Of a stretch of DNA of 34,006 bases, positions 5,932 to 33,417 are shown piece by piece (position 1 is the stretch's first letter; every line of letters begins with the position of its first letter). Location of the stretch: positions 1 through 34,006 of the forward strand of contig JANXYC010000225.1 in NCBI GenBank assembly GCA_025350305.1, read 5' to 3'. The stretch comes from Cyclobacteriaceae bacterium (lineage in GTDB: Bacteria > Bacteroidota > Bacteroidia > Cytophagales > Cyclobacteriaceae). The notes below the pieces were generated by a model that worked only from the letters and a program-made list of their open reading frames with translations, was not told the DNA's origin and searched no databases. Made by a program: the position numbers and the translations under genes.

Positions 5932-6702
5932 TCAGCCTTTCCGCGTCTTTACTTCATCGTATCGCTGATCATAGTCCTGCCGCAAGGTGCCCATCCAGCG
6001 ATCCCACCACAAAAAATATAGGCCATAGTTGCCTGTGAAATATTCATGGTGTTGATTATGGTTCACCGAAGTATTGATCCACTTCCCCATCTTGCTCTGT
6101 GAGAAACCTCGGGGGTAGAGTTCAAATCCCAGGTGGCCGTACACATTGTAAATCATCATAATAAGCAGGAACAAGGCAATCGCCAGCGGATGAATGGGAA
6201 ACAAAAACGGAACGATGGCAATAATCCCAAACTCCACCACGGCCTCCAGCGGATGAAAAGCCATGGCTGCCCACGGCGAGGGATTGGTGGAAAGGTGATG
6301 GACTTTATGGAAGTATTTGAAAAGCCAGGGGTGGTGCATCAACCGGTGCGTCCAATAGAAATAAGTGTCATGAATAATCAATGTCAGTACTACGGAGAAG
6401 AAGAAATACAACAGACTGTGAGCATGAATATCTTTATAAATAAATGTGTATTTCGCGACCGGGCCGAAGAAAAACAGGTAGCCCAGCACAGCAAATATGA
6501 GTGACGTGCTCACCGAAAATAAAAATTCGCGTTGGTAATCAGAGATTGCCGGAAATTTCACCTGGATTTTTTTGAATAACCAGGCATTTTTTTTGATGTA
6601 ATAAAAAACTAGAAATGCTGCTGAAGCCAGGAGAAGGTACCGGATGAATATGATCAGCAGGATTGCGTAAAATTGATTGTCAATGCCGATAAAACCGCCC
6701 AT
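5932..6702 (-). CDS. Fatty acid hydroxylase / sterol desaturase superfamily membrane protein
   Basis: The 256-residue protein has four or more transmembrane helices. It carries the histidine clusters that hold the di-iron centre of this superfamily: HDTYFYWTHRLMHH (111-124), FHKVHH (131-136) and HNQHH (215-219). These enzymes use O2 to hydroxylate or desaturate lipids in the membrane. Bacterial members act on fatty acyl chains, carotenoids or hopanoid- and sterol-like lipids, and the substrate cannot be deduced. No lipid-synthesis genes are adjacent. The start at 6702 (MGGFIGIDNQ) gives the usual short N-terminus before the first helix. All metal-binding histidines are present, so the enzyme should be active. 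Confidence 0.88.
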   Translation of the reverse strand: MGGFIGIDNQFYAILLIIFIRYLLLASAAFLVFYYIKKNAWLFKKIQVKFPAISDYQREFLFSVSTSLIFAVLGYLFFFGPVAKYTFIYKDIHAHSLLYFFFSVVLTLIIHDTYFYWTHRLMHHPWLFKYFHKVHHLSTNPSPWAAMAFHPLEAVVEFGIIAIVPFLFPIHPLAIALFLLIMMIYNVYGHLGFELYPRGFSQSKMGKWINTSVNHNQHHEYFTGNYGLYFLWWDRWMGTLRQDYDQRYDEVKTRKG

Positions 6703-14531: not shown

Positions 14532-16970
14532 TCATTCTTCATACTCTAAAATCATCCTCTTCACCCTGTCTTCCAATTTTTCAGAAGTAAGTTTATCACG
14601 GGACAACCGGTCGACAATGATTGGAAATGAAAACGGTGTAGGCACAGCGGGTTCCTTAATGATGATTTTTTGTTTTTTGATTCGATCCAGCGCCCGTCGC
14701 ATCCGTGCTTCCTCGAGTTGAAAGGCCATGACTTCTTCGTACGCCTGATGAAACAGGAGGTTGGTCGAATCATACTCATGAAAGACATTAAAAAACAGTT
14801 GCGATGAAGATTGGATGTGCTTGTCGCGGATCCGTTGCCCGGGAAATCCTTTGAACACCAATCCCGCAATGGCAGCGATGTCCCGGAACTTGCGGCGCGC
14901 CATTTCAATGGAATTAATACTGGCCTGAATGTCCTTCAATAGATTGTCAATGCCTAACAAATCGGTTTCAATCGCTTCATAAATTGGTATTTCCTGATCG
15001 GAGAGCAGTTCAAAGCCATAATCATTCATCGCAATGGAAAATGTGATGGGCTTTATCCTCGAAATACGGTAGGCCACCAATGATGCAAGTCCTTCATGAA
15101 TCAACCTTCCTTCAAATGGATACATCACCACATGATGCCCTTCATCAGTTTCAAAATATTCGATAAGGAATTCATTTTTCTTCGGCAGGTGCGACCGTTC
15201 TGATTGAAGCTTTAACAAAGGTCGCAGAAAAATCATTTCTTCGTCGGTCTCAAGGCCTTCTGCCGATTCATTGATCTTCATCCGGATCATCTCACTCATC
15301 TGCGAAGACAATGGCATGCGCCCACCTTGCCAGGATGGTACACGGCCTGATTTACGTTTGCTCTTGCGCACCTGCACTTCCATGTCCTTGACACGCACAA
15401 GCTCCAGGGTCCGGCCCGCAAACCAAAAAACATCTCCAGGGGACAGCCTTGAAATAAAGCCTTCCTCAATCGAGCCCAGGTATTTTCCTGTGACATACTT
15501 CACCATCATGGAAGTATCTCCCACGATTGTTCCGATCGACAGTCGATGACGTTGCGCTATGCTCCTGCTTTCAACTTTATATATTCCTTCTTCTATTTGC
15601 ACCTTCCGGTATTCATCATAGGCCGTTAACGATGCACCTCCTGTTGTGATGAAGCGCAAAGCCCAATGCCATTCTTCCTCCGTGATCGATTGAAAACAGA
15701 ACGTTCCCTTGACCTCCTGAAATATTTCATCCTGCTTAAAGCCATCGGAGACCGCCAGCGTCACCAGATACTGAACCAACACATCAAAAGACCGGACATA
15801 CGGTTCCCGGTTTTCCAAAACATTTCTTTTCATTGCTTCACGAACAGCGGCAGCCTCGATGAGTTCCAATGAATGCGTGGGTAAGAAGTAAATCCTGCTG
15901 ACAGCGCCTGGTTGATGTCCGCTTCTTCCAGCCCGTTGAAGAAACCGCGCCACACCTTTTGGACTTCCCACCTGGATGATCGTTTCCACCGGTCGGAAGT
16001 CCACTCCCAGATCGAGGCTGGAGGTGCACACCACCGCCTTCAGTTTGCCTTCGTGCAATTGTTCTTCAACCCAGTGACGGATTTCATAGCTGATGGAGCC
16101 GTGGTGCATGGCGATCTGGCCAGAAAGTTCCGGGGCGGCGTCCAGCATTTTCTGGTACCATATCTCAGCGAATGAGCGTGTATTGGTAAAGATGAGTGTG
16201 GTCTTGCTTTTATGAACAATCTCAATAGCCTTTTTCAAAAGATGAATGCCCAGGTGGCCGGTCCACGGCATCCGCTCCAATTCATCGGGAAACACCGAGA
16301 TGATTTCCACCTTCTTTTTAATGTCGGCCTTAATGACTTTGTGAACTTTCTTTTCATAGTCGGAACCGAGTAGTACTTGCAGTGACTGCTCCATGTTTCC
16401 GATAGTGGCGGAGATACCCCAGATTTTAAGACCAGGCGCTACCGTCTTGAGGCGCGATAAAGCCAACTCCATCTGCACACCGCGTTTGGAACCCATCAGT
16501 TCATGCCATTCGTCAACAACGATTGCCTTGAGGTTTGAGAAATAATCGGCGTATGTTTTTTGAGAAAGTAAAAGATGCAGGCTCTCCGGTGTTGTGATCA
16601 GAAACTGGGGAGGCTTCTCCCGCTGCCGCGATTTTTCGACGGAACTTGTGTCGCCCGACCGGATGCCGACTTTCCAGTGAGAACCAAGACCTTCCGCCGC
16701 GTGCTTGGTGGCCTGTTGAATCTCCTTTGAGAGCGCCCTGATCGGCGCAATCCAGATCGCCTGAATTTTCTTGTCCTTGTTTTGAAGTCCTTCTAACAAA
16801 ATTGGTACAGCAAGGGAGTACGTCTTCCCGCTACCGGTGGGCGCATTGACCAGTCCGTTTTGGCCATTGAGGTAGGCTTGCCAGGTGTCCAATTGAAATT
16901 GAAATGGTGTCCAACCCATTTTGTTGAACCATTGGAGGGCTGTATGGATGGCTGGATCTATTTTTTTCAC
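14532..16970 (-). CDS. Ligase-associated DEXH-box helicase (Lhr-like superfamily 2)
   Basis: The 812-residue cytoplasmic protein has an SF2 helicase core: a Q-like FQFQLDTW segment, Walker A APTGSGKT (43-50), DEWH box (153-156), SAT (187-189), and a second RecA domain with FTNTRS, SLDLGVDF and QRAGRSGH. A C-terminal extension of about 400 residues resembles the Lhr/DEXH ligase-associated group in length and layout. These enzymes unwind DNA 3' to 5' and occur with PdeM, an MBL-fold exonuclease and an ATP-dependent ligase in a repair module. Here it is transcribed toward pdeM but separated from it by two genes on the other strand. It is divergent from the MerR-type gene, with only 65 bp between starts. 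Confidence 0.9.
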   Translation of the reverse strand: MKKIDPAIHTALQWFNKMGWTPFQFQLDTWQAYLNGQNGLVNAPTGSGKTYSLAVPILLEGLQNKDKKIQAIWIAPIRALSKEIQQATKHAAEGLGSHWKVGIRSGDTSSVEKSRQREKPPQFLITTPESLHLLLSQKTYADYFSNLKAIVVDEWHELMGSKRGVQMELALSRLKTVAPGLKIWGISATIGNMEQSLQVLLGSDYEKKVHKVIKADIKKKVEIISVFPDELERMPWTGHLGIHLLKKAIEIVHKSKTTLIFTNTRSFAEIWYQKMLDAAPELSGQIAMHHGSISYEIRHWVEEQLHEGKLKAVVCTSSLDLGVDFRPVETIIQVGSPKGVARFLQRAGRSGHQPGAVSRIYFLPTHSLELIEAAAVREAMKRNVLENREPYVRSFDVLVQYLVTLAVSDGFKQDEIFQEVKGTFCFQSITEEEWHWALRFITTGGASLTAYDEYRKVQIEEGIYKVESRSIAQRHRLSIGTIVGDTSMMVKYVTGKYLGSIEEGFISRLSPGDVFWFAGRTLELVRVKDMEVQVRKSKRKSGRVPSWQGGRMPLSSQMSEMIRMKINESAEGLETDEEMIFLRPLLKLQSERSHLPKKNEFLIEYFETDEGHHVVMYPFEGRLIHEGLASLVAYRISRIKPITFSIAMNDYGFELLSDQEIPIYEAIETDLLGIDNLLKDIQASINSIEMARRKFRDIAAIAGLVFKGFPGQRIRDKHIQSSSQLFFNVFHEYDSTNLLFHQAYEEVMAFQLEEARMRRALDRIKKQKIIIKEPAVPTPFSFPIIVDRLSRDKLTSEKLEDRVKRMILEYEE

Positions 16971-17035: not shown

Positions 17036-17932
17036 ATGGGTAAATACTCCATAAAAGAACTGGAAAAGCTCTCGGGCATTAAGGCTCATACGATACGAAT
17101 ATGGGAAAAACGATACCAGATTGTAATTCCCCAACGCACCCACACCAATATCCGCTACTATTCCGACGATGATTTAAAAAAAATTATCAACATCTCGCTT
17201 CTGAACAATAACGGAGTAAAAATATCCAAAATAGCCGACCTGACGGCAGAGGGGCTGATCAAAAAAGTAAACGAGTTAAGCGAAACAAAAAATGATGCTG
17301 ACATTCACATCGATCAACTGATCGTGGCGATGATTGACCTGGAGGAAGAAAACTTTGAAAAGATTCTGACCGGGTTGATCCGACGCTATAACTTTGAAAA
17401 GACCATAACAGACATCGTTTATCCATTCCTGGAAAAAATCGGGATCCTGTGGCAAACCGGTAACATTACTCCAGCCCAAGAGCATTTCATTTCTAACCTG
17501 ATCCGGCAAAAGATTATTGTTGCGATCGACTCACTTCCGTTGTCATCAAAGTCCAGTGCACGTGCTTTGCTTTTCCTTCCGGAGGAGGAGCTTCATGAAC
17601 TGGGTCTGTTATTTTATTACTACGTCGTGAAAAAAGCTGGTTTCCGTACCTACTACCTCGGCCAAATGGTGCCTTACAAAGACCTGATGTCCATTTGCCA
17701 AAGCCATCATCCTTCTATTCTTGTTACAGCAATTACCAGTTCGCCAGCCGGACAAACTGTTCAAGGTTTCATAAATAAGCTCTGCGCAGAAATATCGGAC
17801 TGCACCCTCCTTGCCTCCGGACTCATTCTCCGGAAAATAGCACTCAAAATCCCTCCAAACATGCATATTTTCTCCTCAATCGCTGAGCTAAAAGATCTCC
17901 TAAAAGGAACAAAACAACGATTGGAGTCTTGA
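17036..17932 (+). CDS. MerR-type regulator with CarH-like cobalamin photoreceptor domain
   Basis: The 298-residue protein has an N-terminal MerR DNA-binding domain (residues 1-70, with TIRIWEKRY in the recognition region and a RYYSDDDL wing segment). A four-helix B12-binding cap follows (about 90-165), then a Rossmann-type cobalamin domain (about 170-295). It has the Wx9EH motif of CarH (W139, E149, H150), which packs against adenosyl-B12, and ExHxxG (E185, H187, G190), whose histidine is the lower cobalt ligand. CarH proteins bind DNA as tetramers in the dark and fall apart when light breaks the Co-C bond. The residue after W139 is Gln, where Thermus CarH has His132. The downstream sigma and idi genes are the likely targets. 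Confidence 0.88.
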   Translation: MGKYSIKELEKLSGIKAHTIRIWEKRYQIVIPQRTHTNIRYYSDDDLKKIINISLLNNNGVKISKIADLTAEGLIKKVNELSETKNDADIHIDQLIVAMIDLEEENFEKILTGLIRRYNFEKTITDIVYPFLEKIGILWQTGNITPAQEHFISNLIRQKIIVAIDSLPLSSKSSARALLFLPEEELHELGLLFYYYVVKKAGFRTYYLGQMVPYKDLMSICQSHHPSILVTAITSSPAGQTVQGFINKLCAEISDCTLLASGLILRKIALKIPPNMHIFSSIAELKDLLKGTKQRLES

Positions 17933-17950
17933 TTTGCCCTTAAACAAAAC

Positions 17951-17980
17951 ATTGCACCTCGAAGTTGCCCATTACATTTG
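17951..17980 (+). promoter_or_regulatory. Predicted promoter of the sigma factor and idi unit
   Basis: TACATTTG (17973-17980) matches the Bacteroidota -7 consensus TAnnTTTG exactly. ATTG (17951-17954), 18 nt upstream, fits the -33 TTG. The start site would fall near 17985, about 30 nt before the sigma start codon. The last four bases of the -7 box are the first four of the inverted repeat at 17977-18010. Confidence 0.6.
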
Positions 17981-18010
17981 TTTAATATTTATCACAAAAT
18001 ATTAAACAAA
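17977..18010. promoter_or_regulatory. Candidate operator: 14-bp perfect inverted repeat
   Basis: TTTGTTTAATATTT (17977-17990) and AAATATTAAACAAA (17997-18010) are exact reverse complements with a 6-nt spacer. The site overlaps the -7 box and ends five bases before the sigma start codon. One more half-site, TTAAACAAA, lies upstream at 17940-17948. Position and symmetry fit an operator for the adjacent MerR/B12 regulator acting as a repressor. A role as an RNA hairpin next to the start codon is an alternative. Confidence 0.7.
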
Positions 18011-18015
18011 ATAGG

Positions 18016-18525
18016 ATGACAGCACTTGAATTCAGCCACACTATTGCGAGATTAAGGCCTGCTTTAAGAACCTTCACGTACCGATTCACTTCCGACGGTG
18101 AAGAATCCAACGACTTGGTTCAAGATACAATCCTCAAAGCCCTTATCTATCGTGACAAATTCCGGGAAAACACTAACCTGAAGGGTTGGTTGTTCACGAT
18201 CATGCGCAACACCTACATCAATAACTATCGCAAAGCACAACGCGAACGGACTTCCCACGACGATACCAAGGAGCTTTACTTTCTGAACGTAGAGGATGAG
18301 CATACATTTAATCGGCCAGAAGGAAGTGTAGAATTCAAAGAAGTTTGGCGAAATATGAATTCGATTAAAGACGAATTGTTGGTGCCCTTCAAGATGCATA
18401 CCACCGGTTATAAATATCATGAGATCGCAGAGCATCTCAAACTCCCCATCGGCACAGTGAAAAACCGGATCTTTCACGCACGAAAAGAAATCCAGAAAAA
18501 ATTGGTAGGTTATCGGCCAATTTGA
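18016..18525 (+). CDS. RNA polymerase sigma factor, sigma-70 family (ECF-like)
   Basis: The 169-residue protein has the two-domain layout of ECF sigma factors. Region 2 spans about residues 5-75 (DLVQDTILKAL and the NLKGWLFTIMRN segment). Region 4 spans about 115-165, with the helix-turn-helix GYKYHEIAEHLKLPIGTVKN. No anti-sigma gene is adjacent, unlike many ECF loci. It sits between the B12-binding MerR regulator and idi and is only 11 nt from idi, so the two form one transcript. In many Bacteroidota a MerR-like regulator and such a sigma factor precede carotenoid genes. I infer that this factor transmits a light or B12 signal, perhaps to promoters elsewhere. Confidence 0.88.
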   Translation: MTALEFSHTIARLRPALRTFTYRFTSDGEESNDLVQDTILKALIYRDKFRENTNLKGWLFTIMRNTYINNYRKAQRERTSHDDTKELYFLNVEDEHTFNRPEGSVEFKEVWRNMNSIKDELLVPFKMHTTGYKYHEIAEHLKLPIGTVKNRIFHARKEIQKKLVGYRPI

Positions 18526-18536
18526 CCTGATGCGAT

Positions 18537-19037
18537 ATGGAAGAGGTAGTACTGGTGGATGAACTTGACCAGGAGATTGGGACCATGGAAAAAATTGAAG
18601 CCCATCGCAAAGGTGCCTTGCACCGGGCATTTTCCATTTTACTTTTTAATTCAAAAGGCGAAGTACTGTTACAAAAGCGGGCTCAAACAAAATACCACAG
18701 CCCGGGACTGTGGACGAATACGTGTTGCAGTCATCCGAAGCCAGGGGAGTTAATGCAAACTGCTGTTCGCAGAAAGCTGATGCATGAAATGGGAATTGAC
18801 TTGCTACCAACCTATTCCCACAAATTTATTTACAAAATTCAACTAGGCGATCTGATCGAACATGAAGTTGATCACATTTATATCGGAAAATTTGACGGGC
18901 AGCCTGCCATCAATAAAGAAGAAGTGGAGGATTGGAAGTACATGGGTACAAAAGAAATACGGACGGATATTCTTGCAAACCCGGATCGCTATTCCCACTG
19001 GTTCAAACTCATCCTGGAGCATTTGAACACGGATTAG
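18537..19037 (+). CDS. idi: Isopentenyl-diphosphate delta-isomerase, type I
   Basis: The 166-residue Nudix-fold enzyme interconverts isopentenyl and dimethylallyl diphosphate, the building blocks of carotenoids, menaquinone and other isoprenoids. Catalytic residues are visible: C64 in NTCCSHP (equivalent to Cys67 of the E. coli enzyme), H66, and the E108/E110 pair in IEHEVD. The Nudix-like helix is GELMQTAVRRKLMHEMGI. The start at 18537 (MEEVVLVDELDQ) is the usual N-terminus. It follows the sigma gene by 11 nt. Bacteria using the MEP pathway make both isomers directly, so idi is often linked to raised isoprenoid flux such as pigment synthesis. No crt gene follows it here. Confidence 0.95.
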   Translation: MEEVVLVDELDQEIGTMEKIEAHRKGALHRAFSILLFNSKGEVLLQKRAQTKYHSPGLWTNTCCSHPKPGELMQTAVRRKLMHEMGIDLLPTYSHKFIYKIQLGDLIEHEVDHIYIGKFDGQPAINKEEVEDWKYMGTKEIRTDILANPDRYSHWFKLILEHLNTD

Positions 19038-31593: not shown

Positions 31594-31674
31594 GGCTCTC
31601 TGAAAACTCCTTGTACCTTCTATTTTAGAGAAGAGTGACGGATTGAGGTCATAAAAGGCAGGGTTTTTAGACCC
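31594..31674. repeat. Nested palindromic element, copy 2
   Basis: This stretch matches the element at 5804-5891 almost throughout, with the same outer arms (CTGAAAACTCCTTGTACC and GGGTTTTTAGACC), the same spacer (GATTGAGGTCATAAAAGG) and a decayed inner palindrome (CTTCTATTTTAGAGAAGAG). It directly abuts the tandem duplication that follows. Confidence 0.75.
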
Positions 31675-31829
31675 ACCCATCGTGGAGAAGGCTTTGATAA
31701 AAAGAATAACAGGAAATGTGTCGAAGGAAAGCTTCAAAAACTCCTCAGTTCTTCTCCTCCGGAGAAGGTGAGATGAAGCCAATGAAAAGGTGTTTTTGAA
31801 GCTTTCTGAAACCGTGTTATATGGAAGAC
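31672..31829. repeat. 158-bp tandem duplication, unit 1
   Basis: The unit begins CCCACCCATCG and contains outer arms GAAAGCTTCAAAAAC (31727-31741) and GTTTTTGAAGCTTTC (31792-31806), which are exact reverse complements. An inner TTCTCC-TCC-GGAGAA palindrome occupies 31752-31766. Unit 2 follows at once. Confidence 0.92.
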
Positions 31830-31990
31830 CCCACCCATCGTGGAAAAGGCTTTGATAAAAAGAATAACGGGAAATGTGTCGAAGGAAAGCTTCAAAAACT
31901 CCTCAGTTCTTCTCCTCCGGAGAAGGTGGGATGAGGCCAATGAAAAGGTGTTTTTGAAGCTTTCTGAAACCGTGTTAGTTATATGGAAGA
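31830..31990. repeat. 158-bp tandem duplication, unit 2
   Basis: It is nearly identical to unit 1. I count four substitutions, all A versus G, plus a 4-nt AGTT insertion near the right end. Its outer arms are at 31885-31899 and 31950-31964 and its inner palindrome is at 31910-31924. The low divergence suggests recent duplication or gene conversion. Confidence 0.92.
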
Positions 31991-32027: not shown

Positions 32028-32121
32028 AACACACTAAATCTGCCAAAAAGAAGCGGAACAACGTGCTCAGGTAATAAACCCGAAAAGTAAATTGATCATT
32101 TATAATCTCGATAAAGCCAAA

Positions 32122-33417
32122 ATGGTTGTTGGACCAACCACTACCCTCTTCTGGTTCCGGCGCGACCTGCGCCTGCAAGACAATGCAGGACTTTACCAGG
32201 CGCTGAAAGAAAATGAGGAAGTCATTCCCATTTTCATTTTCGATTCGGTCATTCTCGACAAACTTGATGACCCTGTCGACCGACGAGTAGAGTTTATTCA
32301 TCAGGCTGTTGCATCGCTGAAAGATGCATTAGAAAAAACAGGAAGTACACTCCTGGTCTTTCACGGAAATCCTGTCAAAATTTTTAAACAACTGCAGCCT
32401 AAAGCAGTTTACACTAACCACGACTATGAACCCTACGCAACAAAACGAGACGGGGAAATAAAAGAAATTCTGGAAAGGAAAAGCATATCATTTAAAACAT
32501 TCAAAGATCAAGTAATTTTTGACAAGGATGAGGTTATTAAAGAAGACGGAACGCCGTACACCATCTTTACACCATACAGTAAAAAATGGAAGGCAGGGCT
32601 GAATGAATTCTCCCTAAAAAGTTATCCAGTCGAAAAATACGCTGACAATTTTAAAAAAACGGCGCCCATTTCAATCCCATCGCTTTCCAACCTTGGATTC
32701 AAAGAGACCAAACCGCGTTTTCCTGACCGCGCGATCAAACAATCTATCATTGAAAAGTATGATACGTTTCGAAACTTTCCTGGGATCGCAGGCACCTCGC
32801 GGTTGAGTGTGCACCTCCGGTTTGGCACGGTGAGCATTCGCAAGCTGGCAAGTGTCGCGGTCAAAAAAAATGAAGTATGGTTAAACGAACTCATCTGGAG
32901 GGATTTCTACCAGATGATTTTGTGGCATTTCCCCCATGTTGAAACTAAAGCCTTCAAACCGGCCTACGACCGGATCGTGTGGCGGAATGATCCAATCGAG
33001 TTTGAAGCATGGTGTGAAGGCCGCACCGGCTACCCGATCGTAGATGCGGGCATGCGTGAACTCAACGGTACTGGTTTCATGCACAACCGCGTGCGCATGA
33101 TCGTCGCCAGTTTTCTGACAAAACATTTGCTCATCGACTGGCGCTGGGGAGAAGCTTATTTTGCACAAAAGTTGCTGGATTTTGACCTCGCCGCCAACAA
33201 CGGTGGCTGGCAGTGGGCGGCTGGCTCGGGGTGTGATGCTGCTCCATACTTCCGGGTATTCAATCCCTACATTCAAACGGAAAAATTTGACCCAGAAAGA
33301 ACATATATCAAAAAATGGGTACCGGAATATGAATCAAAGAACTATCCCAGGCCCATTGTGGATCATGCTATTGCGCGGAAACGGGTGTTGACGGTATATA
33401 AGGTGGCGCTGGAATAA
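32122..33417 (+). CDS. phrB: Class I deoxyribodipyrimidine photolyase / cryptochrome
   Basis: The 431-residue protein starts at the ATG at 32122. A TTG 30 bp upstream is less likely because the N-terminal TTLFWFRRDLRLQDN should lie close to the start. The N-terminal alpha/beta antenna domain (about 1-130) is followed by the FAD domain with GTSRLSVHLRFGTVS, NELIWRDFYQM, WCEGRTGYPIVDAGMREL, HNRVRMIVASFLTKHLLIDW and NNGGWQWAAGSGCDAAPYF. Tryptophans for electron transfer and the Asn and Trp residues of the CPD pocket are present. That favours a DNA-repair photolyase, though a signalling cryptochrome cannot be excluded. The enzyme reverses UV cyclobutane dimers with blue light. It stands alone. 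Confidence 0.93.
   Translation: MVVGPTTTLFWFRRDLRLQDNAGLYQALKENEEVIPIFIFDSVILDKLDDPVDRRVEFIHQAVASLKDALEKTGSTLLVFHGNPVKIFKQLQPKAVYTNHDYEPYATKRDGEIKEILERKSISFKTFKDQVIFDKDEVIKEDGTPYTIFTPYSKKWKAGLNEFSLKSYPVEKYADNFKKTAPISIPSLSNLGFKETKPRFPDRAIKQSIIEKYDTFRNFPGIAGTSRLSVHLRFGTVSIRKLASVAVKKNEVWLNELIWRDFYQMILWHFPHVETKAFKPAYDRIVWRNDPIEFEAWCEGRTGYPIVDAGMRELNGTGFMHNRVRMIVASFLTKHLLIDWRWGEAYFAQKLLDFDLAANNGGWQWAAGSGCDAAPYFRVFNPYIQTEKFDPERTYIKKWVPEYESKNYPRPIVDHAIARKRVLTVYKVALE

Follow-up and report, generated by a model that had tools for sequence, protein, structure and literature searches.

A CarH-like light-control locus of a Cyclobacteriaceae bacterium with an apparent deletion of crtI and crtB and an intact switch

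Gene content of the locus and features of the MerR protein

The window, i.e., the whole analysed stretch of 34,006 nucleotides, corresponds to contig C231; the draft genome to which it belongs measures 4.2 Mb (305 contigs, completeness 91.81, contamination 2.47). The named relatives closest to it are Cyclobacteriaceae or Cytophagales bacteria. A CarH-like MerR/B12 gene, an ECF sigma factor gene and idi form a compact unit containing no crt gene; such a unit had been described in a first-pass annotation and was confirmed at 17036-19037. The genes and the junction considered here were:

14532..16970, minus strand: Lhr-type helicase, divergent neighbour and syntenic flank in crt-keeping relatives
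17036..17932, plus strand: CarH-like MerR/B12-binding regulator, 298 aa, with W139, E149, H150, E185 and H187
18016..18525, plus strand: ECF sigma factor, 169 aa (TIGR02937, 74.1 against a cut-off of 42.9)
18515..18535, plus strand: putative deletion scar, 21 nt resembling the end of crtB, fused to the sigma end, 1 nt before the idi start
18537..19037, plus strand: idi, type I isopentenyl-diphosphate isomerase
32092..33417, plus strand: photolyase-family gene, below every NCBIfam cut-off

The C-terminal residues RPI of the sigma factor derive from the fused crtB-like tail, and idi is its own sole match in the genome at E 0.001. The photolyase, 64-73% identical to the intact copies of relatives, lies 13 kb downstream in the window, and in many relatives its orthologue is found directly behind idi or within about 7 kb. 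The gene is preceded by a two-component/RND cluster, the response regulator and kinase of which adjoin the photolyase in genome G469 too. Upstream of it (31672-31977), a 148-nt repeat with internal 19-nt inverted arms occurs twice (97% alike, 158 nt apart). The FA_hydroxylase gene at 5932-6702 was rejected as crtZ, having matched the general Pfam family only and no NCBIfam model at E 1e-20.

The MerR protein has a MerR-type N-terminal DNA-binding domain (PF13411, 58.1 bits against a cut-off of 21.6) and a four-helix cap (PF02607, 44.6 against 23). Both residue sets pointed out in the first-pass annotation, Wx9EH (W139, E149, H150) and ExHxxG (E185, G190 and the lower axial histidine H187), are present. 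The Wx9EH residues are invariant in 60/60 (window included) and 75/75 sequences, which rules out their occurrence by chance. The E and H of ExHxxG are invariant across the 60 sequences, and position 190 is G in 32 of them and S, A, T or I in the others. The exact motif tail (x41 SxV/T x22-27 GG) was not found in the window, which has A232-I-T234 and S261-G262; G262 is conserved in 59/60 sequences. The predicted fold is CarH-like (when aligned structurally with Thermus CarH, the protein is about 20% identical), and the score against the NCBIfam TransRegCarH equivalog NF052513 is 94.4 bits, below the 400-bit threshold.

Methylmalonyl-CoA mutase and IcmF-type enzymes need adenosylcobalamin. Because the genome encodes what we take, from their sequences and not from a model match, to be a methylmalonyl-CoA mutase and an IcmF-type fusion protein, the cell probably uses adenosylcobalamin. 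The MerR protein of the window, by analogy with CarH, may bind this cofactor, respond to light and act as a repressor. The protein resembles CarH of Thermus thermophilus, Bacillus megaterium and Myxococcus xanthus in the MerR N-terminus, the B12-binding C-terminus, Wx9EH, ExHxxG and the predicted fold, and, as with CarH, the operator (a candidate here) overlaps the promoter of the controlled gene. It differs in that the classic GG is SG, the NCBIfam CarH score is far under the cut-off, and the immediate target is a sigma factor plus idi, with no crt gene.

Synteny, the deletion scar and carotenoid genes in the genome

In near relatives, the same chromosomal place carries the helicase followed by MerR-sigma-crtI-crtB-idi. 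This order, behind a divergent helicase, was found in G064 of the same genus and in G019 and G078 of the same family. The nearest relative with the entire locus on one contig, G447 (locus L095), matches the window gene for gene (PiT 84%, helicase 83%, MerR 70%, idi 69%). Between sigma and idi, G447, G421 and G469 have crtI and crtB, and in the window both are absent from that place. In the helicase tree, the window falls into a clade with G447, G421 and G504 (97/97), all of which have crtB, the gene order of G504 being visible as far as the sigma gene, within which its contig stops. In the crt-bearing locus L096 (G421), the MerR match ends at residue 250 and the C-terminus appears altered.

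Across the junction in the window, sequence like the sigma gene continues to its last codons and gives way to a stretch resembling the crtB end, after which idi follows. The putative scar differs from the crtB tail of G421 at 5/21 positions, of which two could be junction filler (3/19 without these two bases), and its distance to the idi ATG (1 nt) is as in G447. The match is short and was noticed before testing; four other window 21-mers of 67,972 match one of 40 crtB tails at least as well, and L151 among these tails is plainly no true tail. In the crtB frame, the scar reads GQFDLMR, and G447 and G421 have HQFNLI and a stop codon. These differences suggest drift at the scar after crtB lost its function, of which the distance to the crtB-tail consensus (8/21) is weak proof, since it falls inside the relatives' range of 2 to 14.

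An assembly or binning artefact would arise if a crt-less minority strain had been joined in or crtI-crtB wrongly skipped, and a draft of 305 contigs with the above completeness and contamination leaves room for either. This is improbable in our estimate, given that the junction lies within a syntenic contig and near both gene ends, that the crtB-like tail has no stop codon and that lycopene cyclase is missing too.

When the draft genome (91.8% complete) was searched for crtB and crtI, as the first-pass annotation had proposed, no phytoene synthase (crtB) was found, and crtI was represented by weak N-terminal matches of at most 37.6 bits against a cut-off of 238.1. No lycopene cyclase was found in the same draft. 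The phytoene synthase search was positive in 128/148 genomes of the order and 351/390 of the family, so it finds the gene where present. The first-pass annotation had left open whether local carotenoid genes were lost or moved. Together, the synteny, the scar and the absence of crtB, lycopene cyclase and above-cut-off crtI from the draft genome support local loss, i.e., deletion of crtI and crtB from this locus in the lineage of the genome, and speak against relocation.

The other suggestion of that annotation, a sigma factor relaying the light signal to unlinked carotenoid promoters, has a precedent in Streptomyces coelicolor, for which a chain from LitR to LitS to crtE is described (PMC12705666), and unlinked crt loci do exist in other Bacteroidota. 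For the present genome it is very unlikely: no carotenoid gene that the sigma factor could drive in the LitR-LitS manner was found (no crtB, lycopene cyclase or above-cut-off crtI), though the search recovers phytoene synthase in most relatives. In the LitR-LitS system, as in the window, a B12-type MerR gene is reported beside a sigma factor gene (PMC12705666), LitS being called ECF type in a reference title; the Streptomyces sigma factor is reported to read the crtE promoter (PMC12705666), whereas no crt gene was found in the genome of the window, and the phylum differs. The crt cluster of Echinicola (Cyclobacteriaceae), described as containing merR and rpoE with crtI and crtB (PMC8683446), resembles the inferred ancestral layout; in the window, a deletion has taken out crtI and crtB. 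MliR was rejected as an already described Bacteroidota relative; its main text (PMC9478572) mentions neither cobalamin nor CarH. Overall, the locus represents a known type of system, CarH/LitR-like and equipped with an ECF sigma gene, in the form of a deletion variant. What is new is the scar, the retention of the switch and the operator candidate that these loci share.

The operator candidate in the window and across Bacteroidota

The sigma promoter of the window is spanned by an operator candidate. The -33 and -7 boxes were assigned with what we take to be the Bacteroidota promoter consensus:

17940..17948, plus strand: TTAAACAAA, right half of the relatives' distal operator, its left half unrecognisable in the window and G447
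17952..17954, plus strand: TTG, candidate -33 element of the sigma promoter, 18 nt upstream of the -7 box
17973..17980, plus strand: candidate -7 box TACATTTG (TAnnTTTG), overlapping the left operator arm
17977..18010: 34-bp palindromic operator candidate TTTGTTTAA-N16-TTAAACAAA, no mismatch

The distal operator occurs in many relatives. The element at 17977-18010 is the sole perfect operator candidate in the genome, and 0.06 sites with at most 3 mismatches are expected in the window by shuffling. At that threshold, 13 places were found genome-wide and 14 with the reversed control. The perfect match is the one at sigma; a second place, within a 235-aa stop-to-stop frame, has 2 mismatches, and the other eleven have 3. 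Six of the 12 weak sites were inspected, and five fall inside frames of at least 150 aa. A multi-site MerR regulon in this genome is unsupported, the site total being about that of the reversed control, and no second outstanding operator was found in it. In a scan of ten genomes, the totals were likewise about those of the reversed control among the matches listed. The GTTCAAT...ATTGAAC palindrome before the window photolyase has a shorter spacer and was not counted as an operator.

CarH operators are described as tandem 11-bp direct repeats (PMC8156234), whereas in the window candidate inverted arms are separated by a spacer of 16; much plasticity is reported among known CarH operators (PMC8156234, PMC9304148). 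The literature covered by the search gave no earlier description of the 34-bp site, though one may exist in papers outside it. A paper on carotenoids induced by light in Flavobacteriia offers no more than a guess at the regulator (PMC7064467).

The operator with spacing 16 was present in 40 of the 43 distinct MerR-sigma gaps (window included), with a shuffled mean of 0.15. Among alternative spacings from 8 to 24, at most 21 gaps matched (spacing 17), followed by 13 (spacing 12), and these two sets are taken to come largely from the same arms as spacing 16. A TAnnTTTG box overlaps the proximal operator in 32/42 distinct gaps, window included (21 left, 11 right), a count made without a chance control. 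In the set of named loci, which partly overlaps the 43 gaps, the operator was found in 48/62 loci with an adjacent sigma gene and in 1/18 without one. It was present in 38/45 loci with crtB in the flank and in 10/17 with an adjacent sigma gene and no crtB seen; seven of these 17 end at a contig break within 2.5 kb, so crt may follow. In L159, L180 and L186, sigma is followed by a gene for a large protein whose N-terminus is signal-like (ARVQVIHNSAD, presumably DUF4397-like), and the N16 operator lies upstream of this gene with 3, 1 and 2 mismatches, respectively. In L160, L166 to L170 and other Cyclobacterium loci, the MerR gene lies behind a crtZ-like gene, the flank has neither sigma nor crtB, and no operator was seen after MerR.

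Overall, crtB lies inside the examined flank in 45/80 named loci. Ten of 12 other Bacteroidota genomes without crtB in the examined MerR flank have it elsewhere; in Cytophaga aurantiaca, the unlinked crtB adjoins a second MerR homologue. Of ten loci from genomes with crtB outside the MerR flank, six were tested for the operator at the unlinked crtI promoter, and L218 (masked bases), L222 (crtI directly after another MerR gene), L223 (only a distant crtI homologue) and L224 (crtI cut by the contig end) were omitted. The operator was found with at most 2 mismatches in 5/6 loci, for each of which 0/300 shuffles scored as high; at L215, the remaining one, there are 5 mismatches. The presence of the operator before unlinked crtI genes connects it with the regulator in trans, and in these genomes points to direct operator control of crtI rather than, or besides, a sigma relay. 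In the unlinked crtI promoters of L216, L217, L219, L220 and L221, GAACA(A) also precedes the operator arm GTTTA by much the same interval, in several of them as GAACAA before GTTTAA; it may be an ECF -35 box.

Retained switch or recent relic

Judged from sequence, the locus combines the deletion, an intact switch and a conserved operator candidate. We consider it somewhat probable that this is the standard Bacteroidota light-control cluster minus crtI and crtB, with the CarH-like switch still driving sigma and idi. The ancestral cluster would have been CarH-like MerR - ECF sigma - crtI - crtB - idi, and a deletion removed its two pigment genes, crtI and crtB. In the dark, by analogy with CarH, adenosylcobalamin-bound MerR would sit on the palindrome at 17977-18010 and repress sigma and idi; in light, the Co-C bond would be broken, the repressor would leave the DNA, and sigma plus idi would be made. 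Without a pigment pathway, the output would be idi plus whichever other promoters the sigma factor reads. It counts against this reading that no sigma targets were identified and that the genome is a draft.

Clear decay is not apparent in MerR, sigma or idi. Of the columns at which every other sequence agrees, the window violates 1/46 (MerR), 0/38 (sigma) and 0/41 (idi), the single MerR violation comparing with a mean of 0.18. For sigma, the window has the shorter branch in 6/6 comparisons (against G447 and G421); its branch is the longer one in 2/9 comparisons for MerR (against G447, G421 and G504) and in 1/6 for idi (against G447 and G421). In a neutral simulation with 300 runs, genes with no stop and at most one violation were obtained in 18% of runs at 0.005 changes per site and 3% at 0.01; equally clean genes appeared in 1/300 runs at 0.02 and in 0/300 at 0.05 or more.

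In the genus sample of 62 genomes, with MerR counted at E 1e-20 or better, 44 have MerR and crtB, 13 neither (three of these are less than 80% complete), four crtB only and one, the window genome, MerR only. As 13 of the 14 crtB-less genomes are also without MerR, the window being the sole exception, the switch is usually not kept without crt, which suggests that in this genus it goes when the pigment genes go. The pattern favours a relic, in which the same deletion is too recent for MerR, sigma and idi to have decayed and the switch has no selected function. The simulation permits this if the divergence after the deletion was small (18% at 0.005), but yields no run this clean at 0.05 or more, and the relic is further opposed by the window sigma branch, shorter than those of G447 and G421, and by the drift suggested at the scar, which is 5/21 off the nearest crtB tail and has lost the stop in the crtB frame. 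We regard a relic left by very recent loss as possible, if rather doubtful.

Selection may still maintain the switch for some use other than carotenoids. In the widest form of this reading, put forward tentatively and with less than even confidence, the switch would have outlived the pigment genes, selection keeping MerR, sigma, idi and the operator for light control of isoprenoid supply and of a carotenoid-free sigma regulon, perhaps including the nearby photolyase; one fixed-spacing palindromic operator would be common to Bacteroidota CarH-like proteins, acting in cis at sigma and in trans at unlinked crt genes.

The known role of CarH proteins is to switch carotenoid genes. Here, the pigment genes appear to have been cut out and the switch left whole, which would separate light sensing from pigment. 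The 34-bp element provides a concrete operator candidate for CarH-like proteins of Bacteroidota, and the switch in the window may now serve another use or be a fresh evolutionary leftover.
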